IMG/VR virus record: IMGVR_UViG_3300034106_002741
Span: 1 to 41,569 of that record
From: a virus
Reading direction: 5' to 3' (one strand)
Length of the DNA stretch: 41,569 bases
In this document: piece after piece, positions 28,905 through 41,119 of the stretch
Numbering within the stretch: position 1 is the stretch's first letter
Layout: every line of letters starts with the position of its first letter
Program-made: the position numbers and the translations under genes
Notes under the pieces: generated by a model
What the model saw: only the letters and a program-made list of their open reading frames with translations
Databases searched by the model: none
Told to the model about the DNA's origin: nothing

Positions 28905-28949
28905 GAGAATGTTAACGAATGTGTGTGTGGTGAGAATAGACGAATGAGG

Positions 28950-29228
28950 TCAGAGTTCAACCATCATCTCAAGCATCTCTGCTTCATTGATTGCTTCATC
29001 ATCCCAACGAACACCATCACCAGTGCTACCCAAATGACGACCAATCTGTCCATCCATCATACAACGAACAAACTTAGCCCAAGGGGTCTCGTTGTCACCA
29101 CAATACTCTACACAAGCCTTTGCAGTGTTATAGAGAAACTGATCATTTCCAATCCACAGAGCAGCATTCCAGGTCTCGTAGTTAGTCCAGCCGTTGTAGG
29201 TAGCTTGAGTGGTTTGGGTGTTGGTCAT
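28950..29228 (-). CDS. NGWTNYETWN-motif protein, 92 aa
   Basis: 92 residues from the ATG at 29228. YNGWTNYETWNAALWIGNDQ at residues 11-30 is the signature of a small family common in phages and plasmids (pattern Y-x-G-W/Y-x-N-x-E-T-W-N); its role is unknown. The frame extends 18 codons further up to 29282, but that part is repeat element A read as protein (including MLRG), so I start at the Met after the GAGAGGAA site. The acidic C-terminus ends EMMVEL. Confidence 0.85.
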   Translation of the reverse strand: MTNTQTTQATYNGWTNYETWNAALWIGNDQFLYNTAKACVEYCGDNETPWAKFVRCMMDGQIGRHLGSTGDGVRWDDEAINEAEMLEMMVEL

Positions 29229-29235
29229 GTGTGTT

Positions 29236-29306
29236 CCTCTCAACATGGCTAAGATACCAGGCCTGGCTCCCTTCGGCGTCATCTGTGGCCAGTTGTATGA
29301 CTGTCC
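29236..29306 (-). repeat. intergenic cassette, copy A
   Basis: Coding sense: GGACAGT-CATACA-ACTGG (decayed palindrome), ACGCC, 18 bp, TATCTT, AGCCATG, TTGAGAGGAA. It heads the module 28950-28659. The promoter-like and RBS parts are intact while the palindrome's second arm is degenerate. It borders the origin-like gap. Confidence 0.8.
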
Positions 29307-29368
29307 ATAATGTCTCAGGATCTCAGGAATCTATGGTAGGCTCATGATCCTCTGTGGCTTGAGCTTTA

Positions 29369-29394
29369 CTTAAGCTTTCTTAAGCGGCTTAAGC
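29369..29394. repeat. three phased CTTAAGC repeats
   Basis: CTTAAGC occurs at 29369-29375, 29379-29385 and 29388-29394, spaced 10 and 9 bases, about one helical turn. This is iteron-like. The core CTTAAG is itself a palindrome. Confidence 0.55.
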
Positions 29395-29466
29395 ACTCGA
29401 ACACTTATGAACCTCCACAGAGTTATTGTACACGAAAGCTCAGAGTGTGTCAAGTGCTCATAAGGC

Positions 29467-29508
29467 TGTGGAAAACTTATAGACTTTTTCCACAAGTGCT
29501 GTGGAAAA
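29467..29508. promoter_or_regulatory. cluster of three TTTTCCACA boxes
   Basis: Minus-strand boxes at 29467-29475 and 29500-29508 flank a plus-strand box at 29486-29494. Alternating orientation within 42 bases gives dyad symmetry. All three match the DnaA-box sequence reported for Synechococcus. Confidence 0.5.
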
Positions 29509-29631
29509 CTATAAAAAACTGTGAGAACTTATGTGTAGCAAACTGTGTGGGTTCTGAGATTTATGTGTGGGGTGTGTTGACATTTTAGCGGTCGTGTGAT
29601 AGCCTGCCCGCTTAGATCACAAGGTCTCAGA

Positions 29632-29646
29632 GGCTTTTTATAAGCC
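29632..29646. other. short AT-loop hairpin
   Basis: GGCTT-TTTAT-AAGCC, a perfect 5-bp stem within the origin-like gap. It could be a weak terminator on either strand or an unwinding structure. Confidence 0.3.
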
Positions 29647-29717
29647 ATCAGAGGCATTCAAAGGGTATTCAACTCAAAAGCTATCAAAAGAAAGCTTTAA
29701 CACAGCCATGTTTTTTT

Positions 29718-29736
29718 AGCCATTTTTTTAATGGCT
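29718..29736 (+). terminator. AT-loop hairpin followed by a T tract
   Basis: AGCCATT-TTTTT-AATGGCT followed by ATTTTT on the plus strand: the shape of an intrinsic terminator for plus-strand transcription, though no plus-strand gene precedes it. It lies next to two TTTTCCACA boxes, so it may instead be part of an unwinding element. Confidence 0.4.
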
Positions 29737-29738
29737 AT

Positions 29739-29759
29739 TTTTCCACAGCTTTTTCCACA
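29739..29759 (+). promoter_or_regulatory. two tandem TTTTCCACA boxes
   Basis: Plus-strand boxes at 29739-29747 and 29751-29759, 12 bases start to start. They complete the five-box set and lie beside the T-rich hairpin. Confidence 0.5.
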
Positions 29760-29857
29760 GGTTATCATAAACTTGTGAAAAACTCATTAACAACAACTCT
29801 TTGAGGACTAAAGCAATGTAACTCCATTCCTCTCTAGGTGTTGTCTTTGTAGAGCAA

Positions 29858-29974
29858 TCAGGGATCATAAGACTCAGCATCTACACTACCTTGAGAGGAA
29901 TCATCCCAGTCAATTACATTCCCTTCGTAGTTACTTTGTTCTTCCATTTCTTGATAGAAAGACTCCTCGTTCAT
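29858..29974 (-). CDS. very small acidic protein, 38 aa
   Basis: MNEESFYQEMEEQSNYEGNV, then a tail rich in Asp, Ser and Tyr. A GGAGGAAC site precedes the ATG, which overlaps the stop of the 61-aa gene as ATGA. Last gene of the module headed by element B. Very acidic; function unknown. Confidence 0.65.
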   Translation of the reverse strand: MNEESFYQEMEEQSNYEGNVIDWDDSSQGSVDAESYDP

Positions 29975-30156
29975 TTGTTCCTCCGAGTGTTGTATTCTCC
30001 GAGATTCTCTACATAAACCTCGTTGACTGATTCGCTATCCTTGAGTTCGAGAAGTTCACGCCAGTTCCATTCATTAGGACTTACACAGTTTGATGTATCA
30101 ACCGTAAAATCGAGCGTGACTCTGTAGCGCGTAACTTTGTTGTTGATGGTTTGCAT
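29971..30156 (-). CDS. small protein with EWNWRELLEL motif, 61 aa
   Basis: Starts MQTINNKVTRYRVTLDFTVD; the middle NEWNWRELLELKDSESVNEV resembles short cyanophage proteins with a beta-strand then W-x-W-x-E-L-L. Soluble. Its stop overlaps the next start (ATGA). Function unknown. Confidence 0.78.
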   Translation of the reverse strand: MQTINNKVTRYRVTLDFTVDTSNCVSPNEWNWRELLELKDSESVNEVYVENLGEYNTRRNK

Positions 30157-30196
30157 TGTGTGATGTCCTTTGAGTGTAACAAACTACGTGGCTATT

Positions 30197-30352
30197 TTAT
30201 ACGTTTTGATACCTAAAAGCAATAGGTTTGTCATACTTTTCTAACACTTGCTGTTTGAGTTCTTCCTGTAGAAAATGCACGATTTCATTGTAGCAATTTT
30301 GTTGTTGTTCAGGTGTTAGATTGTCCGCCCAATTTTGATTCATTTGTGACAT
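30197..30352 (-). CDS. small Gln-rich helical protein, 51 aa
   Basis: Starts MSQMNQNWADNLTPEQQQNC, followed by a helix containing LQEELKQQVLEKYDKP. An alternative ATG at 30343 would overlap the upstream stop by the ATGA arrangement used throughout this region and may be the true start. EELKQQ also appears in the 50-aa protein at 30797. No known family. Confidence 0.65.
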   Translation of the reverse strand: MSQMNQNWADNLTPEQQQNCYNEIVHFLQEELKQQVLEKYDKPIAFRYQNV

Positions 30353-30465
30353 TTTTCTTGGAAGTAATTTGCGTAACTTGGATTAGCACAACTGTCCCGA
30401 ATTGTAGCAAAAATGAGTAGACTTAGGGGGACGATTGCGATAGCAAATAGATGTCGCTTTTTCAT
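30340..30465 (-). CDS. small membrane-anchored or secreted peptide, 41 aa
   Basis: MKKRHLFAIAIVPLSLLIFA is a positive N-terminus followed by a hydrophobic segment (residues 6-21), then a polar tail with two Cys. This is a signal anchor or signal peptide, so it should reach the host inner membrane or periplasm. Starts in an ATGA overlap with the 60-aa gene. Function unknown; tiny phage membrane proteins often affect host envelope functions. Confidence 0.7.
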   Translation of the reverse strand: MKKRHLFAIAIVPLSLLIFATIRDSCANPSYANYFQEKCHK

Positions 30466-30644
30466 GAGTTGTTGATAAGATCTCGTTCAATCTGATGAAG
30501 CATTGTTTCAGTCCAGGCTAATGGGTTTGCGATACCTTCGTTGCTGTAGAGTTGAGTATAGCGTAGACCATAAAGATCAGGATTTAGAAACTGCAACTCA
30601 TGAAGAGTTTGAGCAATTCGGATGTTCAATCTTTGATTATTCAT
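30462..30644 (-). CDS. small protein, 60 aa
   Basis: MNNQRLNIRIAQTLHELQFL, then a Tyr-rich middle (DLYGLRYTQLYS) and a helical end. It overlaps the upstream gene by 8 bases and the next by ATGA. Soluble; no recognised family. Confidence 0.72.
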   Translation of the reverse strand: MNNQRLNIRIAQTLHELQFLNPDLYGLRYTQLYSNEGIANPLAWTETMLHQIERDLINNS

Positions 30645-30807
30645 GATGAAGAATGTCGATCATTCGTTGGTGAAACTTATCAGCATCAGTCACACATTCA
30701 TGCGACAGAGTAGCATCTTCAATGTCGTACTGTTTCATCTCCAGAGTGTGAATCACATCGCCCATGAGTTCAGTCAGAGCGAAAAGCTTTTCTGCGTCAG
30801 TCATCAT
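30637..30807 (-). CDS. small acidic helical protein, 56 aa
   Basis: MMTDAEKLFALTELMGDVIH, continuing as charged helix to DILHHE. An AAAGAGGTG site precedes the double-Met start, so either Met can serve. Overlaps both neighbours by 8-11 bases. Function unknown. Confidence 0.7.
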   Translation of the reverse strand: MMTDAEKLFALTELMGDVIHTLEMKQYDIEDATLSHECVTDADKFHQRMIDILHHE

Positions 30808-30949
30808 TTGGATTCACCTCTTTCAGAACTTGAGTGAACAATTCAATCGCAGCTTCGTTGCAGTTGTCTTTCTTCATTCGGTAAATGTAGAACTCCAATG
30901 CTTCAGTGATAGCTTGTTGTTTGAGTTCTTCCCAGGTCGGCTTTGTCAT
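30797..30949 (-). CDS. small helical protein, 50 aa
   Basis: MTKPTWEELKQQAITEALEF, then YIYRMKKDNCNEAAIELF: an amphipathic helical protein. It ends overlapping the 56-aa gene by 11 bases. Function unknown. Confidence 0.72.
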   Translation of the reverse strand: MTKPTWEELKQQAITEALEFYIYRMKKDNCNEAAIELFTQVLKEVNPNDD

Positions 30950-30953
30950 TGAT

Positions 30954-31169
30954 TTAACCTCCACCGTACACATAATCTACAATACCAGCAACATAAAGAT
31001 TCACACTTTCGATAACAGTGAACGTAGCATACTTGTCGAACTCTTCAGCATGATACTCGCTGAACTCTTTTACAAACAATTCGCGGCACATTTCTTTCGA
31101 TTCAGCAGCAATCACGACCATTCCAGAGGTATAGTCAGACAGAACGTTGTTGATGATGTAGAGATTCAT
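30954..31169 (-). CDS. 71-aa protein, function unknown
   Basis: MNLYIINNVLSDYTSGMVVI, an alternating strand-and-helix pattern with AESKEMCRELFVKEFSEYHA and a Gly-rich end (DYVYGGG). A good AAAGGAA site precedes the ATG. A small alpha/beta fold; I recognise no function. Second gene of the element-B module. Confidence 0.8.
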   Translation of the reverse strand: MNLYIINNVLSDYTSGMVVIAAESKEMCRELFVKEFSEYHAEEFDKYATFTVIESVNLYVAGIVDYVYGGG

Positions 31170-31189
31170 GGCTTTTCCTTTGGTGTTAA

Positions 31190-31372
31190 TTAAGCGGCGA
31201 GGAGAGATTGCATTTCAACAACCCGAACATCCATCTTAGAGTAATCATAACCCTGATTCTCTTCAAGGTCTACCAGATAAGCATTAGCCGTGGAGAAGCA
31301 ATCAAACAACCGCAGAGAAGCAAAATCCTCGCCTTCATAATCCCAACCACCGATCACAGCATAAACTCGCAT
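31190..31372 (-). CDS. small VYAVIGGWDYEGE protein, 60 aa
   Basis: From the ATG at 31372 the protein reads MRVYAVIGGWDYEGEDFASL and ends RVVEMQSLLAA; GGWDYEGE-type small proteins are common in cyanophages, function unknown. I chose this start because GGAGC sits 8 bases upstream; the earlier in-frame Met at 31396 is inside repeat copy B. First gene of the largest module (nine genes down to 29858). Confidence 0.8.
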   Translation of the reverse strand: MRVYAVIGGWDYEGEDFASLRLFDCFSTANAYLVDLEENQGYDYSKMDVRVVEMQSLLAA

Positions 31373-31390
31373 CGCGTTTGCTCCGTTGTT

Positions 31391-31460
31391 TTCCATATGG
31401 CTAAGATACCCGATCTGGCTGGGGTTCGGCGCAAATGGTGGACAGCCAGTGAACTGTCAC
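31391..31460 (-). repeat. intergenic cassette, copy B
   Basis: Coding sense: TGTGACAG-TTCACTGG-CTGTCCACC, GCGCC, 19 bp, TATCTT, AGCCAT, then a divergent leader (ATGGAAAACAACGGAGC) in place of TTGAGAGGAA. Heads the nine-gene module. Confidence 0.82.
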
Positions 31461-31473
31461 ATTGCTACTTGAA

Positions 31474-31492
31474 AGGGGGCACGTAGCCCCCT
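31474..31492 (-). terminator. hairpin terminator after the 52-aa gene
   Basis: AGGGGGC-TACGT-GCCCCCT followed by TTC in the coding sense: a perfect 7-bp GC-rich stem 12 bases after the stop at 31504, just before cassette copy B. It insulates module C from module B. Confidence 0.65.
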
Positions 31493-31503
31493 ACTGTTCT
31501 CAA

Positions 31504-31662
31504 TCAGAACTCAATCGGTTCGAGCGTTGCAATGCCCAGAGTCTGTGCAATCATCGGAGATTCAATGTAGCTGAATCCACCAGCGATAGAGTCAAGAACC
31601 TCAAGCATTTGAGTACCGTTCTGAGCAGTGCGAAGCATACCGATTGCGGTTTCTTTGGTCAT
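31504..31662 (-). CDS. small protein, 52 aa (paralogue-like pair, member 1)
   Basis: MTKETAIGMLRTAQNGTQML followed by EVLDSIAGGF. The pattern NG-x-x-[ML]-L-x-[VI]-L-D-x-I is shared with the 41-aa product at 31712, suggesting a tandem duplicate. Last gene of the element-C module, followed by a strong hairpin. Function unknown. Confidence 0.7.
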   Translation of the reverse strand: MTKETAIGMLRTAQNGTQMLEVLDSIAGGFSYIESPMIAQTLGIATLEPIEF

Positions 31663-31711
31663 GATAAAGAAGAAAAAGTGTGTGGGTAAAATGTAAAGAA
31701 AGAGGAGTTAA

Positions 31712-31837
31712 TCAGTCTTCGAGAAAGCACTCAACTTCGCCAGATTCAATGTCATCCAGAATCTGCAGAAGTTCGTTACCATTGGTAGCAAACTGATCCA
31801 GAACTGCGATAAAGAACTCTTTGCGGGTGGTGATCAT
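31712..31837 (-). CDS. small protein, 41 aa (paralogue-like pair, member 2)
   Basis: MITTRKEFFIAVLDQFATNG, then NELLQILDDIESGEVECFLE. Shares the NG-x-x-LL-x-ILD core with the 52-aa gene downstream. Start chosen at the first Met. Function unknown. Confidence 0.68.
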   Translation of the reverse strand: MITTRKEFFIAVLDQFATNGNELLQILDDIESGEVECFLED

Positions 31838-31891
31838 TTTAGGAAAAAAAGTGTGGTGATTTGAGTGTCTTTAGAGCGCATCTCATTCTCT

Positions 31892-31908
31892 ATTCGCAAA
31901 TGGCGAAT
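31892..31908 (-). terminator. small hairpin after the 69-aa gene
   Basis: ATTCGC-CATTT-GCGAAT, perfect 6-bp stem, two bases past the stop at 31910. No T run, so termination is doubtful. Confidence 0.35.
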
Positions 31909-31909
31909 G

Positions 31910-32119
31910 TTATTGAACTTGTTCCAGCAAACCGTTCAGGTATTCTTCATCATAAACCGTGGCAATTTCTTCCTTCAGTTCATCCTCACTCATGCCATCC
32001 AAATTGTCACAAATAGTGTCGATTGCAAACTGACACAAATCGCGGACATCCATGCCATCAACAATGTCGGTGGCGTAGACTTCAATCAGTTTGGAAAGTT
32101 GTTCTTTGGAAAGTGTCAT
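31910..32119 (-). CDS. acidic helical protein, 69 aa
   Basis: MTLSKEQLSKLIEVYATDIV, then GMDVRDLCQFAIDTICDNLD and a MSEDELKEEIATVYDEEYL end: a strongly acidic, helix-rich protein. The frame runs 12 codons further up, but I start at 32119, 4 bases past the TGA of the 56-aa gene. Function unknown; a helical regulator or inhibitor would fit its character. Confidence 0.75.
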   Translation of the reverse strand: MTLSKEQLSKLIEVYATDIVDGMDVRDLCQFAIDTICDNLDGMSEDELKEEIATVYDEEYLNGLLEQVQ

Positions 32120-32123
32120 GATC

Positions 32124-32294
32124 TCAAATAGTTGCAGGGGACAGGGAAACATCAACTCGCTTCAGATTCAATCCGCAGAGTTGCTCCATCACACGATCGT
32201 GAATCTTCGCACAAGCATTCTTTGCACGAGATTGTTCATACCAAATGGTACAACAGCCGTCGTTGGTTTCTACTTGGATTCGGATGGTTTGCAT
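32124..32294 (-). CDS. small Cys-containing protein, 56 aa
   Basis: MQTIRIQVETNDGCCTIWYE, a beta-type start with a CC pair, then a helix (RAKNACAKIHDRVMEQLC). Start overlaps the stop of the 46-aa gene by one base (TGATG). Function unknown. Confidence 0.72.
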   Translation of the reverse strand: MQTIRIQVETNDGCCTIWYEQSRAKNACAKIHDRVMEQLCGLNLKRVDVSLSPATI

Positions 32295-32434
32295 CACTTT
32301 GCGTTGCAGTAGTTAGGATCAACTTGACAGAACTGATCAGCCTGACGTTCTTGATAATCACTCACAGTTGCATGAGCAGCAAGACCGAAACGAAGACCAA
32401 GAGCAAGTGTAGCAATCAGGAAAGCGATTCGCAT
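32294..32434 (-). CDS. small secreted protein, 46 aa
   Basis: MRIAFLIATLALGLRFGLAA is a signal peptide with a plausible cleavage after AHA (residues 21-23), leaving a short mature peptide with two Cys (QFCQVDPNYC) that could form a disulfide in the periplasm. The frame extends upstream, but that part overlaps the 55-aa gene. Function unknown. Confidence 0.75.
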   Translation of the reverse strand: MRIAFLIATLALGLRFGLAAHATVSDYQERQADQFCQVDPNYCNAK

Positions 32435-32444
32435 GATAATTGTA

Positions 32445-32612
32445 TCAGTCGAGGTTGATAGGTTGGAAGTCTGCAGAGTAACGATCACCGAAAGCTGATG
32501 CAATGGTGACAGAATCAAAGACACCAAGTTGCTCACCGTTCTTAACAACAACCCACATTTGTTTGCGGGTTTCGATGTCAAAACAGGGAAGGAAGTTGGT
32601 TGCGTTGGTCAT
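32445..32612 (-). CDS. small protein, 55 aa
   Basis: From the Met at 32612: MTNATNFLPCFDIETRKQMW, then VVVKNGEQLGVFDSVTIASA: a small beta-rich fold. An upstream in-frame ATG in cassette copy C would add MLRGIA; I prefer the Met right after GAGAGGAATCGCA. Heads the six-gene module C. Confidence 0.76.
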   Translation of the reverse strand: MTNATNFLPCFDIETRKQMWVVVKNGEQLGVFDSVTIASAFGDRYSADFQPINLD

Positions 32613-32619
32613 TGCGATT

Positions 32620-32692
32620 CCTCTCAACATGGCTAGAATACATCATCTGAGGCCCCGTGGCGTGATCAGTGGACAGCCGCCCGATTGGGCCA
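32620..32692 (-). repeat. intergenic cassette, copy C
   Basis: Coding sense: GCCCAATCGGGC hairpin with GGCTGTCCACTGAT, ACGCC, 18 bp, TATTCT (variant of TATCTT), AGCCATG, TTGAGAGGAA. It directly follows the stop of the 100-aa gene. Confidence 0.82.
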
Positions 32693-32995
32693 TTAGTTGA
32701 TGATGATAGCGTCAAGATTCAGGTTGTTGACACACTGAACGCCACAGTAGTAAGCATCAAGCCAGTTGTCGAAAGTCTCAACAGTTCGAGTCACAGAATG
32801 GCGAGGATTGATCTCCTCACGAATAGAAACTGCGAACACATCGACAGATCCATCCTCAACATACTTTGCAGAGTGAGTGATGCTCACATTGCCATTCTCT
32901 TTGAAGCTGTAGACCGAACGAGTGTTCATGTGATGAGCATTCAGCTCACTTCCGAAGTAGACTTCGGCCTTCCAGCCTTGGCGGAACAGAGTCAT
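32693..32995 (-). CDS. 100-aa protein, function unknown
   Basis: From the Met at 32995: MTLFRQGWKAEVYFGSELNA, with SITHSAKYVEDGSVDVFAVS and a DNWLDAYYCGVQCVNNLNLD end. It looks like a small beta-sheet protein. The frame extends up through cassette copy D; an alternative start at 33016 lies inside the cassette. I prefer 32995 because genes after other copies start 24-29 bases past the GCCA core. Single-gene module. Confidence 0.72.
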   Translation of the reverse strand: MTLFRQGWKAEVYFGSELNAHHMNTRSVYSFKENGNVSITHSAKYVEDGSVDVFAVSIREEINPRHSVTRTVETFDNWLDAYYCGVQCVNNLNLDAIIIN

Positions 32996-33010
32996 TTGCG
33001 TTGCGTTGTT

Positions 33011-33080
33011 CTTCATGTGGCCAAGATACCAAGGATCAGCCCCCTTCGGCGGATTTGGTGGACAGCTGCTCAACTGTCAC
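33011..33080 (-). repeat. intergenic cassette, copy D
   Basis: Coding sense: TGTGACAGTTGAGCAGCTGTCC with the TGA stop of the upstream gene in its loop, CCACC, TCCGCC, 19 bp, TATCTT, GGCCACATG, then a divergent leader without GAGAGG. Confidence 0.82.
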
Positions 33081-33261
33081 ACTCCTCATAATTATAAGCA
33101 ACAATTCCAGTAGGAAGGACAAGCGTATCCCCGAGCAAAAACTCATCCAAAAAATAGTCTACAGTGAGCTCAAGTTGAGCAGCATACCACTCATACTCAA
33201 GATAAACTTCCACAGGCATTTCGTAGGAGTTAGTTTCAACAGTGTCGTGGGATTTAGCCAT
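33070..33261 (-). CDS. acidic small protein, 63 aa
   Basis: MAKSHDTVETNSYEMPVEVY, then LEYEWYAAQLELTVDYFLDE: acidic and aromatic. The stop TGA lies in the loop of cassette copy D. The frame is open 46 codons further up, but that overlaps the 53-aa gene, so I start at 33261, four bases past its TAA. Function unknown. Confidence 0.74.
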   Translation of the reverse strand: MAKSHDTVETNSYEMPVEVYLEYEWYAAQLELTVDYFLDEFLLGDTLVLPTGIVAYNYEECDS

Positions 33262-33265
33262 GATT

Positions 33266-33427
33266 TTACCAGTTAATGAGAGTAGCTGTGTTACCAAGTT
33301 TGTTTTGCTCATCAACGATTTCCATTGCGTGAGCATAAGTTTTGACAGTAACATAGCGAGCTTTACCTTTAGTCTCAGGGAACAAGCCAAGTCGGTCAAT
33401 GATGCGAACAGTGTTACCGTGTTTCAT
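33266..33427 (-). CDS. small basic protein, 53 aa
   Basis: MKHGNTVRIIDRLGLFPETK, then GKARYVTVKTYAHAMEIVDE: beta strands followed by a helix, mildly basic. It starts in an ATGA overlap with the 38-aa gene. Function unknown. Confidence 0.74.
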   Translation of the reverse strand: MKHGNTVRIIDRLGLFPETKGKARYVTVKTYAHAMEIVDEQNKLGNTATLINW

Positions 33428-33540
33428 TCTGCGGTCGATTGAATAAAGTTAGCGGCGGAATGAAGAATGTCTCCCGTAGTGTAGCGAACCTGAGGGAAGA
33501 TCAGGAACGCTACAATGAAGACCAAGCCAATTGTTTTCAT
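33424..33540 (-). CDS. small membrane or secreted peptide, 38 aa
   Basis: MKTIGLVFIVAFLIFPQVRY: a Lys followed by a 14-residue hydrophobic stretch, typical of a signal anchor. Its stop overlaps the next start. Likely in the inner membrane. Function unknown. Confidence 0.68.
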   Translation of the reverse strand: MKTIGLVFIVAFLIFPQVRYTTGDILHSAANFIQSTAE

Positions 33541-33578
33541 CTTGTCAGGTGGCTTGAATGTCAGCGACTTGGTAGTCA

Positions 33579-33896
33579 TCAGTTCAGGCGCATACCCGAG
33601 AAGAAGGGAATCACCGAACCGTCAGACATACGGAACTGCCAAACATGGTTCTTCTGGAAGACACATTCCCCACCGATTCCATGACCGCGAAGAAGAGCAT
33701 TCAGACGGCTTTTCGTGGTGTTGGATTGCCAACCACCATCAAACAGTTGCATCCAAGTGTCACCAACTTCAGCAATCTTGTTACCGTGCAGATAAACATA
33801 GCTCACACCGTCGATGTTAGCGACTTCGGTGTTTGCAGACTTCCAATCAACCTCACGGTCGATTGCGGTGTTCATTTGCTGTTCGATCTTACGCAT
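33579..33896 (-). CDS. DGVSYVYLHGN-motif protein, 105 aa
   Basis: 105 residues from 33896. NTEVANIDGVSYVYLHGNKI (22-41) and WQSNTTKSRLNALL (56-69) are features of a small family seen in phages and some bacteria, pattern N-T-x-V-x-x-x-D-G-V-S-x-V-Y-L-H-G-N and T-T-K-S-R-L-N-A; function unknown. The frame extends 47 codons up, but that stretch reads through cassette copy E. MNTAIDREVDWKSA at residue 8 is an alternative start. No strong RBS is seen at either. Confidence 0.8.
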   Translation of the reverse strand: MRKIEQQMNTAIDREVDWKSANTEVANIDGVSYVYLHGNKIAEVGDTWMQLFDGGWQSNTTKSRLNALLRGHGIGGECVFQKNHVWQFRMSDGSVIPFFSGMRLN

Positions 33897-33930
33897 GGTT
33901 TGAGTAGCGATTGTTTGGTGGGAGGTCTCA

Positions 33931-34007
33931 TCCCCTCCCGATGTGGCCAATATAGGGCCTAGAGGGGCCCCTAGGCGGGATTGGTGGACAGCCGCCCGAT
34001 TGTCACA
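33931..34007 (-). repeat. intergenic cassette, copy E
   Basis: Coding sense: TGTGACAATCGGGCGGCTGTCC, CCCGCC, 21 bp, TATTGG (decayed -10), CCACATCGGGAGGGG. It carries an extra near-palindrome around CCTAG-GGGCCC-CTAGG. With copy I it forms a subgroup sharing GACAAT and the following CTTG end. Confidence 0.72.
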
Positions 34008-34180
34008 AGGCGGCCAGGTTTGGTAGGATCCGACCAACCCCTAGGCAGTCGCAAGTTGGAAGCGGTGAGACTCATGGCCACCACTGAACCGAAAACCGGA
34101 AAAAGCGTTGATTCTGGCCGCAAGGTAGTCTAGGTCAGCCCATGCAGCCAGAATTGCATGAAATTAGTTGTTTGCTCGTA
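34008..34180. other. gene-free spacer beyond cassette copy E
   Basis: About 170 bases with no start-to-stop frame I accept. The first 20 bases resemble the sequence beyond copy I. A 36-codon open stretch in the coding sense (LAAWADLDYLAARINAF and on) lacks a start codon and could be a gene remnant. Confidence 0.4.
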
Positions 34181-34507: not shown

Positions 34508-34534
34508 TGTTTTGTGTGTTGTTGTGTGTTAGTT

Positions 34535-34729: not shown

Positions 34730-34732
34730 GAC

Positions 34733-34930: not shown

Positions 34931-34973
34931 TGTAGAAAAAACGGAGGTTTTAATGTAGAAAAAGTGGAGCTAA

Positions 34974-35141: not shown

Positions 35142-35152
35142 TGGGTTGGATT

Positions 35153-35378: not shown

Positions 35379-35385
35379 GATCGTT

Positions 35386-35762: not shown

Positions 35763-35764
35763 AA

Positions 35765-36043: not shown

Positions 36044-36054
36044 TGCGGTTGTTT

Positions 36055-36125
36055 GTCTCAACATGGCTAAGATACAGGATCTGGCTGGGTTTGGCGGGAT
36101 GAGTGGACAGCCCACCAACTGGCAC
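36055..36125 (-). repeat. intergenic cassette, copy G
   Basis: Coding sense: TGTGCCAGTTGGTGGGCTGTCC, ACTCATCCCGCC, 18 bp, TGTATCTT, AGCCATG, TTGAGA then CAAAC (RBS weakened). Confidence 0.82.
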
Positions 36126-36129
36126 ATTG

Positions 36130-36345
36130 CTATACCATTTTCAAACCATAATCTTTAAGCATAATGTCACGAACATGCTCACGATCAAAGCTGTCACCAT
36201 AAAACTCAGCTCCAGAGTTGATGTACTTCTGTGTAGCTTCCATCACCATGTCTAGTGTAGCTCCGATCTTGTAGATACCATTCTCACCATAAAAGCTGAG
36301 AACATAATTGTAGAAGTCAGCCATCAAAGTAGGATCGTACATCAT
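36130..36345 (-). CDS. 71-aa protein, function unknown
   Basis: MMYDPTLMADFYNYVLSFYG, then ENGIYKIGATLDMVMEATQK and DSFDREHVRDIMLKDYGLKM. Alpha-rich, acidic and soluble. Either of the first two Met codons may start it. Last gene of the H module, its TAG next to cassette G. Confidence 0.77.
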   Translation of the reverse strand: MMYDPTLMADFYNYVLSFYGENGIYKIGATLDMVMEATQKYINSGAEFYGDSFDREHVRDIMLKDYGLKMV

Positions 36346-36551
36346 CAGATCACACCTTCAGCAATTTCATTCATAATTGCACGAGCATACTTCATGAACC
36401 GATAAGCTGTAACTTCATCATAAGTGACACCATCAAGCACATCTGAGCCCATGTAAGTGTCAATGATTAGGTTACATGCGTCGTAGAGAGCAGCAGTGTG
36501 TTCAGCTTTTGAGTGAAATTGCATGGCGTTGTAAGTAGGCATTGTCATCAT
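36345..36551 (-). CDS. 68-aa protein, function unknown
   Basis: From the ATG at 36551: MMTMPTYNAMQFHSKAEHTA, then LYDACNLIIDTYMGSDVLDG and YDEVTAYRFMKYARAIMNEI. Helix-rich. The start overlaps the previous stop as TGATG; Met codons at 36548 and 36542 are alternatives. No recognised family. Confidence 0.74.
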   Translation of the reverse strand: MMTMPTYNAMQFHSKAEHTAALYDACNLIIDTYMGSDVLDGVTYDEVTAYRFMKYARAIMNEIAEGVI

Positions 36552-36874
36552 CAAACTCCTAGCAGTTCGCGTTGTTCAGGGGTGAGAGATTCGATCAGCT
36601 CTTTGCGTTTTTGTGCTTTGATTTCCTCTAGTAGCTTTTCTTCCAACATTCCATCAAGAACATCCATCATAGCATCAAAACTGTATGCTCCTTTATTCCA
36701 ATCACTTTCAGCTTTTTGAGTGATGACTACTTTTTCATCAAAGCCTTCTTGACAAAACATTTCATAGATACGAACTACATAATCGCCATCTTTGTCCTCA
36801 CGAACCACAACATTCAGTTGGAGTTTATCTGCTTTGGCGAAAAGTTTGAGAAGTTCAGTTGCTTTGATAGTCAT
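36551..36874 (-). CDS. 107-aa protein with charged C-terminal helix
   Basis: MTIKATELLKLFAKADKLQL, a beta portion (LNVVVREDKDGDYVVRIYEM), and from about residue 60 a long charged helix (MLEEKLLEEIKAQKRKELIE) that could be a coiled coil. Soluble. Function unknown. Confidence 0.8.
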   Translation of the reverse strand: MTIKATELLKLFAKADKLQLNVVVREDKDGDYVVRIYEMFCQEGFDEKVVITQKAESDWNKGAYSFDAMMDVLDGMLEEKLLEEIKAQKRKELIESLTPEQRELLGV

Positions 36875-36876
36875 GA

Positions 36877-37107
36877 TCAGAAGTGTGCCTCAGAGTAGTC
36901 AAGTTGTGCAGAGTATTCTGCAATTTTGTTGTAGCACTTCTCACGAGTTTGCTCATCAGCACCATGCATGAATGAGAAACAATACTTTATCCGTTGCTCA
37001 GGATGTGAGAGCACACGAGCAATCTCAGCTTGACGCTTTTGGTATGCAGCATTGTAAGCAAACATCTCGCGGTCTTCAATGCTCATTGTGTGATACTTGC
37101 GTTGCAT
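36877..37107 (-). CDS. 76-aa protein, function unknown
   Basis: From 37107: MQRKYHTMSIEDREMFAYNA, then AYQKRQAEIARVLSHPEQRI and an acidic end. The ATG at 37116 directly abuts the GAGAG of cassette H, too close for a ribosome-binding site, so I prefer the Met three codons later. Helix-rich. Function unknown. Confidence 0.76.
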   Translation of the reverse strand: MQRKYHTMSIEDREMFAYNAAYQKRQAEIARVLSHPEQRIKYCFSFMHGADEQTREKCYNKIAEYSAQLDYSEAHF

Positions 37108-37116
37108 GTGATTCAT

Positions 37117-37188
37117 CTCTCAACATAGCCAAGATACCACCGCCAAGGCCCCCTCGGCGGATTTAGTGGACAGTCCATCAACTGGCAC
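37117..37188 (-). repeat. intergenic cassette, copy H
   Basis: Coding sense: TGTGCCAGTTGATGGACTGTCC, ACTAAATCCGCC, 19 bp, TATCTT, GGCTATG, TTGAGAGATG. The GAGGGGGCC after CCGCC is shared with copies D and J. Confidence 0.83.
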
Positions 37189-37191
37189 ACA

Positions 37192-37344
37192 CTATCGGTT
37201 TAGGTTGGAAAGCTGTCGTTTAATCTCTACTTCCAACGGGATCAGATGCGACACCATAAAGTGCTCATACTCATTGTCTTTTAGGAGTTCGGTGATGTTA
37301 TCAATCTGCATCAATGCGAGAATGAACTTAGTTTTCTCATCCAT
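37192..37344 (-). CDS. small helical protein, 50 aa
   Basis: MDEKTKFILALMQIDNITEL, then KDNEYEHFMVSHLIPLEVEI: a helix-rich small protein. Its start overlaps the stop of the zinc-ribbon gene by 8 bases. Function unknown. Confidence 0.72.
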   Translation of the reverse strand: MDEKTKFILALMQIDNITELLKDNEYEHFMVSHLIPLEVEIKRQLSNLNR

Positions 37345-37543
37345 AGCTTCGGTCAAATCGGTGTTTGCAATCAGGACACATAAAGTATGCAGTTCGGTCT
37401 AAATCACGATCATAACATGCAATCACCCGACTGTAAAAGTACGGGGGAGAATAGTTCTCCCATCGTTCTTCGGGAATCAATGAATCAACCCAGTTTGCAT
37501 TACATTCTGGACAATTCTCTAGTTTGGTTACATCTGGTTTCAT
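37337..37543 (-). CDS. zinc-ribbon-like protein, 68 aa
   Basis: From the Met at 37543, CPEC (residues 11-14) and CPDC (56-59) are two Cys pairs separated by about 42 residues, as in a zinc-ribbon/knuckle domain. Between them is a Tyr-rich segment (NYSPPYFYSRVIACYDRDLD). A nucleic-acid or RNA-polymerase-binding role is common for phage zinc ribbons but is not shown here. The frame is open 12 codons further up, overlapping the previous gene. Confidence 0.76.
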   Translation of the reverse strand: MKPDVTKLENCPECNANWVDSLIPEERWENYSPPYFYSRVIACYDRDLDRTAYFMCPDCKHRFDRSYG

Positions 37544-37547
37544 TATT

Positions 37548-37760
37548 TCAGTTAATGATGGTATCAACATTAGGATCAAATGTCACCTCAGTGATGACAT
37601 CAAACTCATCAGTCATTTTAACATAATTCCAGAGACCTTCATCTTCACCTTCCTGATACAAATGAATGAAACCTTCTGCATCCTGTTTCACATAACAACC
37701 ATCATAATCCTCACCATCGAACACATAACCAGATGCAATCAGTGCGTCAACGAAAGTCAT
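37548..37760 (-). CDS. acidic protein, 70 aa
   Basis: MTFVDALIASGYVFDGEDYD, then GCYVKQDAEGFIHLYQEGED and an end DPNVDTIIN. Very acidic and beta-rich. Starts after the GAGAGAAA of cassette copy I. First gene of module I. Function unknown. Confidence 0.78.
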   Translation of the reverse strand: MTFVDALIASGYVFDGEDYDGCYVKQDAEGFIHLYQEGEDEGLWNYVKMTDEFDVITEVTFDPNVDTIIN

Positions 37761-37775
37761 GGGAGTTGTGTGTTT

Positions 37776-37847
37776 CTCTCAACATAGCTAAGATACATCG
37801 TATCAGCGACCAGTGGGGAGATTAGTGGACAGTCTGCGGATTGTCAC
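37776..37847 (-). repeat. intergenic cassette, copy I
   Basis: Coding sense: TGTGACAATCCGCAGACTGTCC, ACTAATCTCCCC, 19 bp, TGTATCTT, AGCTATG, TTGAGAGAAA. Shares GACAAT and the flanking CTTG with copy E; both copies border gene-free spacers rather than a gene end. Confidence 0.82.
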
Positions 37848-38030
37848 AAGGGGGCTGGGTTTTGGATAGATCACAGCGGCTCCCAGTGAGTCCCGATTCT
37901 GTCTCAGTGAGATCCCTGTTGTGGCAAGGGGTTTGAGTTTGAGCAAACTTTGATTTTCTTGCAATTTTACCCCAGTAGGGGATTGGTTCATCCATTGCAA
38001 TCAGAATCATCAAAAAATGAATTGTTGTAA
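37848..38030. other. gene-free spacer beyond cassette copy I
   Basis: About 180 bases. It holds direct repeats CAGTGAG-TCCC and CAGTGAGATCCC, a CCCC-TACT-GGGG hairpin (37970-37981) followed by TAAAATTGC in the coding sense that may be a weak terminator for the RlpA gene, and a GTTTG/CAAAC pair. Two overlapping open stretches look unlike proteins. Confidence 0.45.
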
Positions 38031-38336
38031 CTAACCGATCACACGATAACAGACAACTGCATTGCCTCTAGATGGTGGAGCAATCTTCCTGAAAGCTCCA
38101 TACGAGAGATCAATGTCTGCGTGGCTATATGGCCCACGATCATTGACTCTTACAATCACCTGTTTCATGTTATCTTGATTGGTGATTCTCAGTTTCGTGC
38201 CGAAAGGCAAATAAGGGTGAGCTGCAGTAAGATTATGAGCATCAAACCGAGCCCCGTTAGCCGTGATTTTTCCATGAAAGCCGTCACCTATTCCATAGTA
38301 TGTAGCAATGCCACACATCAAACTAGCTAGGATCAT
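38031..38336 (-). CDS. RlpA-like double-psi beta-barrel protein
   Basis: 101 residues from 38336. ITANGARFDAHNLTAAHPYL, PFGTKLRITN, VIVRVNDRGPY and DIDLSYGAF are the core of the RlpA/DPBB fold. The residues matching the catalytic His and Asp of lytic-transglycosylase RlpA are present (His40 in TAAHPYLPFG, Asp66 in NDRGP), so it may cut peptidoglycan glycan strands. No SPOR domain. The export signal is short (MILASLMCGIATYYG); a TTG start at 38378 would add a more hydrophobic leader. Two tiny membrane proteins lie just upstream, suggesting an envelope-acting unit. Ordinary RlpA proteins are larger. Confidence 0.8.
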   Translation of the reverse strand: MILASLMCGIATYYGIGDGFHGKITANGARFDAHNLTAAHPYLPFGTKLRITNQDNMKQVIVRVNDRGPYSHADIDLSYGAFRKIAPPSRGNAVVCYRVIG

Positions 38337-38421
38337 CGTCTCTTGGATTGATAGCGAAAAGACAATAACTGACCGCAAATGATACAGCAGTTACGGTCAG
38401 GTAGATGACAAGATAAGTCAT
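38323..38421 (-). CDS. tiny membrane peptide, 32 aa
   Basis: MTYLVIYLTVTAVSFAVSYC, one hydrophobic span (residues 3-23) and a polar, acidic end (AINPRDDDPS). It overlaps the RlpA start by 14 bases and its own start overlaps the previous stop (TGATG). A single-span membrane peptide that could anchor or recruit the RlpA-like enzyme. Confidence 0.62.
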   Translation of the reverse strand: MTYLVIYLTVTAVSFAVSYCLFAINPRDDDPS

Positions 38422-38558
38422 CAATCTTTCTTTTGCATCTCTTCAATGTCTTTCAACATTTCATCCAGACGCTTAGCACTTCGGGCATTCAGAATAATGT
38501 CAGTGACACAATAGCCAAAGGCGAACCATGCGGCGACAATAGTGAGAATAGAAAACAT
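38421..38558 (-). CDS. small membrane protein with charged helix, 45 aa
   Basis: MFSILTIVAAWFAFGYCVTD gives a transmembrane span, then IILNARSAKRLDEMLKDIEE and MQKKD, a charged helix. This layout is seen in Rz-like spanins and small membrane adaptors, but it is too short to name. First of the two membrane proteins before the RlpA-like gene. Confidence 0.7.
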   Translation of the reverse strand: MFSILTIVAAWFAFGYCVTDIILNARSAKRLDEMLKDIEEMQKKD

Positions 38559-38560
38559 AA

Positions 38561-38731
38561 TTAACCTCCTACAGATTGAATAGTAATAACATCTAAAGTT
38601 TCCTGAGTTAGATTAACTTCCTCAGGTTCATCTGTCTCACCCAAGTAAGCACTGAGAAGATCATAGATCAAACTCATTTGCTCATTGGTGAACAGGTATT
38701 GTTGATCTGGGTGAAGAATGGAAACATTCAT
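38561..38731 (-). CDS. acidic small protein, 56 aa
   Basis: MNVSILHPDQQYLFTNEQMS, then LIYDLLSAYLGETDEPEEVN and an end IQSVGG. Acidic and soluble. Starts in an ATGA overlap with the 66-aa gene. Function unknown. Confidence 0.74.
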   Translation of the reverse strand: MNVSILHPDQQYLFTNEQMSLIYDLLSAYLGETDEPEEVNLTQETLDVITIQSVGG

Positions 38732-38928
38732 TTCAGTTCTTGAAGCACAGCAACAAAGCTTTCAAGGCAATCTTTGGGGATGTGAAAAGATTGTCCTGTT
38801 TTAGTTTCTTCCATTCCATGAGTTTCATAGGCAGAAACTTCAATACATCCTTCACCATCATCACTAAACTGGTAGAACCAACCATCTTCATGGTGAATAC
38901 GAATCTCGCGGGTGATTTGGTAAGTCAT
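38728..38928 (-). CDS. 66-aa protein, function unknown
   Basis: MTYQITREIRIHHEDGWFYQ, then FSDDGEGCIEVSAYETHGME and an end ESFVAVLQELK: a beta-rich fold with a C-terminal helix. Its start overlaps the last base of the 78-aa gene's stop. No recognised family. Confidence 0.78.
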   Translation of the reverse strand: MTYQITREIRIHHEDGWFYQFSDDGEGCIEVSAYETHGMEETKTGQSFHIPKDCLESFVAVLQELK

Positions 38929-39164
38929 CAGTGAGTGTTGAGAATGTGGACAAAATCAAGGGAAAATACACACCAACCAGTGTAATCTGACACCTCTTCA
39001 ACTAGAACATCAGCAATGGCTTCATCATCATCGTCATCATCAACTTTCACCTCAAAGACATTACCAACAACAGAATCTACAACCTCTTGTTGTTGTTCTG
39101 CGGTGAAGTCTAAATCATCAAAATCAAAAGAAACTTCGGTGACTTGGAGAGTAAGAGTTTTCAT
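38928..39164 (-). CDS. very acidic protein, 78 aa
   Basis: MKTLTLQVTEVSFDFDDLDF, then VGNVFEVKVDDDDDDEAIAD and SDYTGWCVFSLDFVHIL. Beta-rich and very acidic with an Asp run in a loop. It could be a DNA mimic or inhibitor, but nothing here shows it. Second gene of module J. Confidence 0.78.
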   Translation of the reverse strand: MKTLTLQVTEVSFDFDDLDFTAEQQQEVVDSVVGNVFEVKVDDDDDDEAIADVLVEEVSDYTGWCVFSLDFVHILNTH

Positions 39165-39166
39165 GA

Positions 39167-39331
39167 TCAGTAGTTAGAAACAGTTCTGAAGATGATGCCA
39201 GTTTCGTTATAACGAAGAGTCACATCACAATAATACTCTTCGGACAAATTGTATGCGAGATCGTATGCACGATCCATGTCGGTGGTAGTGTTCTCCCACG
39301 GTGCCGCAGGGCAGATAACGTCGATTCGCAT
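39167..39331 (-). CDS. small protein, 54 aa
   Basis: From 39331: MRIDVICPAAPWENTTTDMD, then RAYDLAYNLSEEYYCDVTLR: a strand, a helix, a strand; a small alpha/beta protein. The in-frame extension above it crosses cassette J (including MLRGITP). Uses the GAGAGGAA site. Function unknown. Confidence 0.76.
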   Translation of the reverse strand: MRIDVICPAAPWENTTTDMDRAYDLAYNLSEEYYCDVTLRYNETGIIFRTVSNY

Positions 39332-39341
39332 CGGTGTGATT

Positions 39342-39414
39342 CCTCTCAACATGGCCAAGATACCAAGGATGAGCCCCCAGTGGCGGGTTTGGTGGACAGT
39401 CCGCAGACTGTCAC
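39342..39414 (-). repeat. intergenic cassette, copy J (best-preserved)
   Basis: Coding sense: TGTGACAGT-CTGCGG-ACTGTCC (perfect palindrome arms), ACCAAACCCGCC, 19 bp, TATCTT, GGCCATG, TTGAGAGGAA. The upstream gene's TGA stop is the first TGA of the palindrome. Confidence 0.88.
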
Positions 39415-40055
39415 AGTTTAAGTTGACTGCAATAGTATGCTCCTTCTTCCATACCAAAATCACCTTTAACAAATGAATTAAAACCTATGACAATTCTCGT
39501 ATCATCATCATTACTTTTTTCGACACTATGTAGAACATGAGATGGAAAGATTACCATTGTCCCAGACTTAACAGAAATAGCCCAGTTTGAACTGTTGTAA
39601 TAGTTCCAAGTTCCATCATAATCATAAGTAAAATCAAACTTTTCAAGATAACCTTGTTTGCCGTGAAGAATAAGATTACCCATGTTCTCATTAGCATTCA
39701 CATAATAAACTCCACTGAAAATACAATTTTGGTGATCATGTTGATGATGATGTTGTCCCTTATTTTTTGTAGTAATCCAAGAGTTTGTAATGTAAAAGTC
39801 TTGTTTAATGTGCAGATAGTTTTTTGTAAACGTGTCTAGATGATGTTGACATAGTTGGTGAACACTTCTTAACGCCAAGTTTTTCAGAACGTGGACATCA
39901 GTTGTTAAACTAACATCAGTTTTTTCATGTAGTGATTTTATTGCACTATCAATACATCCTTGTTCTACATCACTTAATGTATAATTAACATCTTCAACAT
40001 AATAAATTGGAGTTGAATATAGTGGTAAAACTATTGTTGGCGAAGACTTAATCAT
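39411..40055 (-). CDS. 2OG-Fe(II) oxygenase, PF13759-like
   Basis: 214 residues. SWITTKNKGQHHHQHDHQNC (92-111) then IFSGVYYVNANENMGNL is the signature of this oxygenase family, with His and Asp ligands in the QHHHQHDH cluster (102-108), a distal His at 176 (HVLHSVEKS) and an Arg at 187 for 2-oxoglutarate. Such proteins are common in cyanophages; the substrate is unknown. Base composition is more AT-rich than nearby small genes, and a late-promoter-like AGTAAATA stands upstream, so it looks like a separately controlled gene inserted into the small-gene region. Confidence 0.8.
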   Translation of the reverse strand: MIKSSPTIVLPLYSTPIYYVEDVNYTLSDVEQGCIDSAIKSLHEKTDVSLTTDVHVLKNLALRSVHQLCQHHLDTFTKNYLHIKQDFYITNSWITTKNKGQHHHQHDHQNCIFSGVYYVNANENMGNLILHGKQGYLEKFDFTYDYDGTWNYYNSSNWAISVKSGTMVIFPSHVLHSVEKSNDDDTRIVIGFNSFVKGDFGMEEGAYYCSQLKL

Positions 40056-40076
40056 GTTATGTTTTCAATACTCTTA

Positions 40077-40289
40077 TTATTTACTACCTCGTGCGGCACC
40101 TAAGATAGCCTGCACAAGGAAGATGATAGCGAAACATTGCCAAAATGTAAGTTGAACTGCGAACCATGATAGAATCAGTCCAAGTAACCAAGCTTCAAAG
40201 CAAAGAAAGGCAAATGAAACTGCAATAATTCCAACAACGGCTCCTAGAAGCCATGCAAGAGACTTGTCACTAAATCGGTTGTAGCTCAT
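40077..40289 (-). CDS. small multi-span membrane protein, 70 aa
   Basis: From 40289: MSYNRFSDKSLAWLLGAVVG, then IIAVSFAFLCFEAWLLGLIL and SWFAVQLTFWQCFAIIFLVQ: two to three hydrophobic spans rich in Trp and Phe. A GAGG site precedes it by 9 bases; an ATG two codons up is less well placed. Inner-membrane protein, function unknown. Confidence 0.8.
   Translation of the reverse strand: MSYNRFSDKSLAWLLGAVVGIIAVSFAFLCFEAWLLGLILSWFAVQLTFWQCFAIIFLVQAILGAARGSK
40078..40085 (-). promoter_or_regulatory. late-promoter-like octamer before the oxygenase gene
   Basis: AGTAAATA on the minus strand, 23 bases before the ATG at 40055, overlapping the end of the membrane-protein gene. No repeat cassette precedes this gene, so this is the only promoter-like signal visible for it. 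Confidence 0.35.
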
Positions 40290-40552
40290 CACCATGTACC
40301 TCGTTGAATGTGAATCTTCTTGATTTCAGTATAAACGAATTGTTTCAGTTTGTCATCATCAGTGTGATCAAATGCGTACCAAAGTCGATTCAAATACTCA
40401 TCTTGTTTCATACACTTTACAACTTCTGCGTTAGTAACACCCAGATCATTTAGAGATGATCCAGCTTTACTTTTAGGACGACCAAAGTTGCCAGTGATAT
40501 TACCTTGAGTCCGCAATTTGGGACGGATCTTAGACAAATTAGAATAGGTCAT
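40289..40552 (-). CDS. 87-aa basic protein, function unknown
   Basis: MTYSNLSKIRPKLRTQGNIT, a basic N-terminus, then FGRPKSKAGSSLNDLG, then an acidic helical segment with Lys-rich end. The basic front could bind nucleic acid. It overlaps both neighbours by one base. No recognised family. Confidence 0.78.
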   Translation of the reverse strand: MTYSNLSKIRPKLRTQGNITGNFGRPKSKAGSSLNDLGVTNAEVVKCMKQDEYLNRLWYAFDHTDDDKLKQFVYTEIKKIHIQRGTW

Positions 40553-40803
40553 CAGAGAACCTTCATTTGGCGAAGTTCTTCATCAATACAGTCAAAGATT
40601 TCCGTATAGATGTGATCATATTGGTCTAGACTTTCAATCACTTTATATGCAACAGCTTCGGTTACATCAATCTCACCATCAGGATCAGGATAATCCATCA
40701 CATCCTCTTTTGTGTAGATCCATGCAGCGACAGGTGCATTTTCACCCTGTTGTCGAATAAGATTCTCTACAGCTTTGCGGAGTTCAGAAAGAGTGCGAGT
40801 CAA
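40552..40803 (-). CDS. acidic 83-aa protein with TTG start
   Basis: It begins with TTG at 40803 preceded by a strong GGAGG at ideal distance; no ATG occurs until residue 36. The protein reads MTRTLSELRKAVENLIRQQG, then YTKEDVMDYPDPDGEIDVTE, ending FDCIDEELRQMKVL. Helix-rich and acidic. The previous gene's TGA is in the same frame two codons before the start. Function unknown. Confidence 0.78.
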   Translation of the reverse strand: MTRTLSELRKAVENLIRQQGENAPVAAWIYTKEDVMDYPDPDGEIDVTEAVAYKVIESLDQYDHIYTEIFDCIDEELRQMKVL

Positions 40804-40806
40804 GAT

Positions 40807-41040
40807 TCAACCTCCGAACAGTTCATCAAACAGATCACCCATCTCACGCATTTCATTCTGACGATCAATCTGATTACGCATCTCAACATAATACTGTTGT
40901 TCCATCTTAAGTTTCATCAACTGGTCACCAATCTCATGGAGTTTGTTGTTAATTTCAATGCGATCCATCCCGTTCACCGTAGTAACAGTGATTGGCATAC
41001 CTTGCGACATCGTAGTGCGTTCGGAGATTGTGTGAGTCAT
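40807..41040 (-). CDS. 77-aa helical protein
   Basis: From 41040: MTHTISERTTMSQGMPITVT, then a helix MDRIEINNKLHEIGDQLMKL, ending MGDLFDELFGG. Strong coiled-coil character from about residue 25. The frame extends into cassette K (MLRGFP); I start after it. First gene of module K. Function unknown. Confidence 0.78.
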   Translation of the reverse strand: MTHTISERTTMSQGMPITVTTVNGMDRIEINNKLHEIGDQLMKLKMEQQYYVEMRNQIDRQNEMREMGDLFDELFGG

Positions 41041-41047
41041 GGGGAAA

Positions 41048-41119
41048 CCTCTCAACATGGCTAGAATACATTGCCTGGCGTCCTCTGGCGAGTCACTAGG
41101 CCGGTTCCGAAACTGTCAC
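41048..41119 (-). repeat. intergenic cassette, copy K
   Basis: Coding sense: TGTGACAGTTTCGG then AACCGG (right arm decayed), CTCGCC, 18 bp, TATTCT, AGCCATG, TTGAGAGG. It lies just past the end of the partial gene at the window edge. Confidence 0.8.

Follow-up and report, generated by a model that had tools for sequence, protein, structure and literature searches.

The window analysed here is a 41,569-bp IMG/VR virus record (IMGVR_UViG_3300034106_002741) of a T4-like cyanomyovirus. Its left, A+T-rich part encodes baseplate wedge proteins, including gp6-like domains, together with a 4369-residue YHYH protein, and a block of small genes with a G+C content of 39–47% occupies 28–41.5 kb. The operons of this block are headed by copies of a short cassette, in which a palindromic dyad precedes promoter-like and ribosome-binding motifs, and it is this cassette that we characterise below.

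A cassette array in the small-gene block

The initial annotation had placed eleven copies of the cassette, all in the coding direction, at 29236, 31391, 32620, 33011, 33931, 35153, 36055, 37117, 37776, 39342 and 41048, and pattern and profile scans recovered every one of them at these positions on the minus (coding) strand. A search with the palindrome pattern, allowing up to three mismatches, gave 7 matches in the window against 0.02 expected. A profile of the dyad, trained mostly on related contigs but with some window copies in the training set, found exactly eleven cassettes on the coding strand, with scores from 24.5 to 34.2. Apart from these sites seen on the opposite strand, the sole other match in the window scores 12.1, which is chance level, 0.85 matches above 11 being expected by chance; the dyad profile thus yields no further cassettes there. 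All eleven copies in the window fall within 12 kb. A high copy number in a hyperplastic small-gene region is also a feature of the PeSL cassettes (early promoter plus stem-loop) of the T4-type coliphages RB49 and phi1, which were reportedly described by Arbiol et al. in 2010 and Comeau et al. in 2014.

The order and spacing proposed for the elements were borne out: a dyad is followed by a CCGCC-like box, a −10 element, RGCCATG, a Shine-Dalgarno (SD) sequence and ATG. Some of the individual motifs had to be redrawn. The palindrome had been given a centre of six nucleotides; a dyad is indeed present, but it is better described as two 10-bp half-sites around 4 nt, with the consensus TGTGMCAGTY-N4-RRCTGKCCAC. 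It lies 28–31 nt upstream of the −10 element, the window dyads ending 28–29 nt ahead of it, and in most window copies the stop codon of the upstream gene adjoins or overlaps it. The −35 element is weak, typically CCGCCA, with a spacer of 17–18 bp to the −10. The latter, often with an upstream TG, is TATCTT as annotated in 8 of the 11 copies, but TATTCT in two (32620 and 41048) and TATATT in one (33931). After it comes RGCCATGTTGAGAGGAA or a variant, then the start codon, usually 28–36 nt downstream of the first −10 base (two window copies fall outside this range). The leader motif is present as proposed, but only 4 cassettes of the 11 have its TTGAGAGGAA in exact form, and the downstream part is degenerate in copies 31391, 33011 and 33931. 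In sequence, this is the anatomy of both a promoter and a ribosome-binding site, the two roles assigned to it, and the predicted gene starts in the list of open reading frames are compatible with the described runs of one to about nine genes per cassette.

Along the window, with every feature on the minus strand and profile scores given in brackets, the first dyad, ATGGACAGTC-ATAC-AACTGGCCAC, lies at 29285–29308 (24.5) and is followed by TATCTT at 29251–29256, a AGCCATGTTGAGAGGAAC leader with SD, and a start codon at 29228. The second, at 31438–31461 (32.5), precedes TATCTT at 31403–31408 and a degenerate leader, with the gene start at 31372 or at an in-frame ATG at 31396. The third dyad occupies 32669–32692 (26.2), with TATTCT at 32635–32640, a leader with SD and a start at 32612; the fourth occupies 33058–33081 (31.4), with TATCTT at 33023–33028, a degenerate leader and a start at 32995. 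At the fifth (33984–34007; 29.6) the −10 is TATATT at 33949–33954, the −35/−10 spacer can form a strong hairpin (−12.8 kcal/mol) without a T-run, and the start at 33896 is tentative. The sixth dyad (35202–35225; 30.1) is accompanied by TATCTT at 35168–35173, a leader with SD and a start at 35141, and the seventh (36103–36126; 33.2) by TATCTT at 36069–36074, the leader TTGAGACAAAC and a start at 36043. The eighth (37166–37189; 32.3) has TATCTT at 37131–37136, a strong spacer hairpin (−15.8 kcal/mol), again without a T-run, and a start at 37116, and the ninth (37825–37848; 29.8) has TATCTT at 37790–37795, a leader and a start at 37760. The tenth, at 39392–39415 (34.2), contains the stop codon of the upstream gene and is followed by TATCTT at 39357–39362, a GGCCATGTTGAGAGGAA leader with SD and a start at 39331. 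The eleventh, at 41097–41120 (25.0), is followed by TATTCT at 41063–41068, a leader with SD and a start at 41040.

The dyad as a predicted DNA operator

The palindrome had been taken for a stem-loop that acts as terminator or insulator. To compare its arms, 196 deduplicated copies were registered by independent profiles blind to pairing, and the 173 good copies were used for covariation. Among these, Watson-Crick pairs between the arms were as frequent as in shuffled arms at each of the ten positions; position 4, for example, freely combines A or C on the left with T or G on the right (49, 40, 37 and 28). Swapping arms between copies left the number of pairable positions at 6.43 of 10, the value of the real copies, and did not change the folding energy (mean minimum free energy −6.05 kcal/mol for real and −6.11 kcal/mol for swapped arms). 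The sense and antisense folds of the dyad are equally stable, and no T-run follows it. The lack of covariation, of strand asymmetry and of any gain over swapped arms led us to reject an RNA hairpin as the meaning of the dyad and leaves the stem-loop terminator or insulator of the initial annotation unsupported; the dyad has neither the G+C-rich stem under pairing selection nor the T-run of a Rho-independent terminator.

The features expected of an operator for a dimeric protein, in contrast, were all found: like half-sites, like degeneracy, fixed spacing and no base-pair covariation. Both half-sites share the consensus TGTGMCAGTY, including the same A/C degeneracy, which varies independently in each, and the gap between them is 4 nt in 169 of the 196 copies. 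Because consensus, degeneracy and gap are shared in this way, the dyad has the form of a site for a symmetric dimer, and it is best read as a predicted DNA operator for a dimeric protein, not as a terminator.

The cassette is present well beyond this genome, and its dyad recurs in related viruses of marine and fresh waters alike. Scans of viral contigs with TATCTTRGCCATGTTGAGAG and TATATTRGCCATGTTGAGAG returned 60 and 107 stretches, one related stretch of 14.7 kb holding up to 9 copies, and copies with at most three mismatches occur in the named isolates S-8S53 (5), S-PRM1 (3), S-T4 (4) and S-CAM9 (4). From 293 distinct copies we derived the conserved core G-TATMTT-RGCCATGTTGAGA-GG, in which the search pattern biases the core columns. 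In most copies the real ATG lies 18–25 nt downstream of the ATG of GCCATG, 114 times in frame and 107 times out of frame; since the frame is not kept, a leaderless or upstream start at GCCATG was rejected. A host origin of the core was likewise rejected, because the genomes of 84,980 prokaryote species gave no cyanobacterial match, only five scattered non-cyanobacterial ones, which is about chance level.

Searching 12 named cyanophages for the full core produced nothing above chance, and the dyad was therefore searched alone. With at most three mismatches, 14 of 16 named T4-like cyanophages carry it, mostly without the window core, among them Syn9, S-PM2, P-SSM2, S-RSM4, S-CRM01, DSL-LC02, S-RIM32 and S-WAM2; some single matches may be chance, and a reversed-pattern control was nearly silent. 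A dyad search found none in T4, Ma-LMM01 or the cyanopodoviruses P-SSP7 and Syn5. P-TIM40 and Syn19 gave no strong match to the full pattern, and a relaxed pattern revealed two degenerate but complete copies in P-TIM40, each with a −10 and a gene start. In nine isolates that do not carry the window core, a TAYNNT box stood 27–32 nt downstream of 28 of 57 dyads (palindromes being counted on both strands), compared with 2.6 per equal window elsewhere, a roughly tenfold excess; DSL-LC02, S-WAM2 and Syn9 provide examples. The Syn9 dyads, at 43113, 44774, 47204 and 49078, lie upstream of gp55, gp61, gp68 and gp75, that is, of four small-gene operons. The dyad and its distance to the −10 element are thus spread more widely than the core of the window cassettes.

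One variant of the dyad, TGTGCAAATTCTNCARCTGTCCAC or nearly so, recurs in S-PM2 (94828–94851), S-RSM4 (53097), S-RIM32 (138676) and S-WAM2 (132835). The S-PM2 copy lies within a dam gene, directly before gp62, and in three of the four phages a TATAAT stands 28 nt downstream on the opposite strand. The variant may act as a promoter of replication genes or may belong to a conserved stretch of coding sequence.

A weak −35 element and a candidate activator

Dyad strength and −35 strength are anticorrelated over the registered copies, related copies among them not being independent (Spearman −0.32, p 4e-6, n=196). Copies with a dyad typically have a CCGCCA-like box at −35, and about 20 copies without one mostly have TTGACC, TTGACT or TTGCCC 17 bp before the −10. 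This dyad-less class of the same promoter core (L194:6380, L251:2632, L264:6375, L262:5063, L049:3796, L171:8100 and others) also has an upstream box like TGATAAG...CTGATCR, and often a terminator hairpin that holds the −35 in its loop, with a T-run leading into the −10.

We consider it probable, at about 0.62, that the cassette is a complete phage promoter of the sigma70 type which brings its own ribosome-binding site and is controlled from an upstream operator, where an activator would replace the −35 element. Two observations point to an activator: a promoter lacking a −35 has a fixed operator centred near −53, and the copies that lack the dyad carry TTGACY or TTGCCC at 17 bp. According to this interpretation, host RNA polymerase with the primary sigma factor would recognise the −10 (TATCTT, TATATT or TATTCT), and a dimeric protein bound to the dyad, whose centre lies some 41 nt ahead of the −10, near −53 relative to the presumed start, would recruit that polymerase as a substitute for a good −35. 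The transcript would begin within or close to GCCATG, and the SD sequence of the first gene would be the TTGAGAGGAA of the short leader. One regulator acting at eleven copies could then activate numerous small operons at once, probably at an early stage of infection; should the promoters indeed be early, the regulator would have to be a host protein or one brought in with the virion. What the sequences show is the anatomy of the cassette, its constant spacing, the arms that do not covary, the distribution, the trade-off with the −35 and the geometry of the leader; protein binding, activation as opposed to repression, and early timing are what we infer from them.

Several points weigh against an activator. 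Some S-CRM01 copies carry a perfect dyad and also TTGACT or TTGACC, the anticorrelation with −35 strength is modest and depends in part on the approximately 20 dyad-less copies, and a dyad upstream of a promoter could equally serve a repressor. In that case a host or phage repressor or silencer would bind the dyad and shut the promoters at some stage. An operator built as an inverted repeat in a constant position is compatible with positive as well as negative control, and a strong dyad combined with a weak −35 could reflect tuning instead. However, the position of the dyad, upstream of the −35 and clear of the −35, the −10 and the start, is unusual for a simple repressor; the core promoters of dyad-less copies are better, not worse; and several relatives have a terminator hairpin at the −35 position, and therefore something must replace the −35. 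A repressor appears unlikely.

Doron and colleagues (2016, ISME J) reportedly found the early genes of Syn9 and P-TIM40 to be under the control of a new regulatory element, conserved across T4-like cyanophages. Promoters with the dyad probably belong to this class, an identity suggested by position: the dyad likewise lies upstream of operons in Syn9 (gp55, gp61, gp68 and gp75) and, in degenerate form, in P-TIM40. A known case of an upstream activator site that replaces the −35 of a sigma70 promoter is the T4 middle promoter, with its MotA box and extended −10. The MotA box, however, is asymmetric and centred near −30, whereas the cyanophage dyad spans 24 bp and is centred near −53. A passage in PMC5780444, citing Doron 2016 and Thompson 2016, states that marine T4-like cyanophages lack motA and asiA.

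Terminators and alternative explanations

The proposal that the cassette is a cyanophage counterpart of PeSL would make the palindrome an RNA stem-loop joined to an early promoter, terminating the transcript from upstream and insulating the operon that follows. It is favoured by the dyad adjoining the upstream stop codon, by the many copies capable of forming a hairpin, by a GenBank label in S-CRM01 (NC_015569, 125862–125891) that calls the dyad itself a Rho-independent terminator, and by genuine terminators between dyad and −10 in relatives. The covariation, strand-symmetry and T-run results given above speak against it. True terminators, where present, moreover form a hairpin of their own on the downstream side of the dyad: in P-SSM2, S-CRM01, S-PM2, S-RIM32 and P-TIM40 the −35 position is held by a G+C-rich hairpin with a T-run that reaches the −10, and the GenBank terminator at 137087–137103 of S-CRM01 is the hairpin between dyad and −10. 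The label at 125862–125891 is probably a misread operator. The initial comparison with PeSL therefore holds for the intrinsic terminators of these five relatives but not for the window, where none of the 11 copies has a hairpin with a T-run between dyad and −10. We regard a stem-loop cassette of this kind as quite improbable here.

A weaker form of termination may apply to the window copies 33931 and 37117, which have strong spacer hairpins without a T-run; we retain it because RB49 early promoters also have −35/−10 spacer hairpins without a T-run, such as TTGACAGGGGATCGGTGATCCCCTATACT. Upstream of the 31391 dyad, the minus strand at 31472–31491 has a terminator-like hairpin, GGGGGC-TACGT-GCCCCC followed by TTT, and termination near this cassette may come from such a separate element. 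The window cassettes resemble those of RB49 and phi1 in being many, short and set in a hyperplastic small-gene region, and their cyanophage relatives do so also in fusing a terminator hairpin with a promoter. PeSL differs in its strong TTGACA −35 and lack of a dyad, whereas the window copies have an operator and a weak −35; their −10 is present, but a TTGACA-like −35 and a terminator stem-loop are missing. The dyad search gave one chance-like match in RB49 and none in T4, and no sequence relation of the window cassettes to those of RB49 was found.

In the S-PM2 ORFanage, stem-loops have been described after S-PM2p038 and p055 (PMC4503421). The stem-loop at 11369–11391 is the terminator hairpin that follows the dyad at 11347–11370 and precedes a TATAAT; no matching dyad was found at the p055 stem-loop. 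The authors of that study judged the density of PeSL to be low and did not describe the dyad or promoter.

Taken across relatives, the anatomy permits a broader and distinctly tentative proposal. T4-like cyanophages might share a class of dyad-dependent promoters in which a dimeric activator, either phage-carried or a conserved host protein, replaces the −35 and frees the spacer for an intrinsic terminator; an element of about 65 bp would then end one operon and start the next, and a single protein could control dozens of early operons. A literature search, which did not take in the PeSL papers or Doron et al. 2016, found no description of the dyad. The contribution of the window lies in its dense single-block array, its 20-bp clade-specific core, the evidence for the dyad as a DNA operator and the −35 trade-off, to which the relatives add the nested-terminator anatomy. 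T4-like cyanophages are among the most abundant viruses in the ocean, and their takeover of host transcription without motA and asiA is poorly understood. An operator conserved in most tested isolates offers a handle with which the binding protein can be fished out, makes promoters predictable in any cyanophage genome, and allows operator and adjacent terminator hairpin, easily confused in annotation, to be told apart.

The initial annotation also supposed that the cassettes still spread by recombination between gene boundaries. If they were primarily mobile or recombinogenic repeats, shuffling of gene modules would be their main role and promoter activity secondary. The copies are many and similar, and the small-gene region is rearranged, the entire block differing in order between relatives. 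We compared the flanking DNA of all gene junctions at the nucleotide level in 176 loci with 423 cassettes. At 75–85% identity the upstream neighbour was kept at 29% of cassette junctions, 39% of other gapped junctions and 43% of tight junctions, but when anchored on the upstream gene the corresponding values were 54%, 46% and 37%. At matched divergence, order is thus broken at cassettes about as often as at other junctions, which lends the supposed spread no clear support. Nor did this nucleotide-based test give a clear excess at cassette junctions of the kind a shuffling hot spot would produce; a test of the adjacency of open-reading-frame families was noisy. The cassette stays with its downstream gene in 60% of similar pairs and with its upstream gene in 30%, as expected of a promoter, which travels with the gene it precedes. 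With the whole region shuffling and neither recombinase nor target duplication seen at the cassettes, a mainly recombinogenic role is very doubtful.

It is highly implausible that the long core TATMTTRGCCATGTTGAGA, although phage-specific and conserved over about 20 bp, serves as promoter for an RNA polymerase or sigma factor encoded by the phage, because the tail genes of the window are T4-like, the scanned proteins gave no match to a polymerase, the same dyad elsewhere precedes an ordinary TATAAT or TATACT −10, and dyad-less copies use TTGACY at 17 bp. A promoter for a virion RNA polymerase was rejected as well: the only match of the 4369-residue protein is to a YHYH domain, and T4-like baseplate proteins are encoded next to it.

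Three further features of the window deserve mention. The reading frame of the YHYH protein (8199–21308, minus strand), which adjoins the baseplate genes, is very large for a tail fibre or adhesin. At 28417–28429 on the minus strand, where the small-gene block borders the late genes, GGCCATAAATAG follows a T-run and resembles a T4-like late promoter. The G+C content rises from approximately 31% in the tail-gene part (1–28000; 37% at 24–26 kb) to the 39–47% of the cassette-bearing block (28001–41569), and the sharpness of this rise suggests a different origin of, or selection for, the block.

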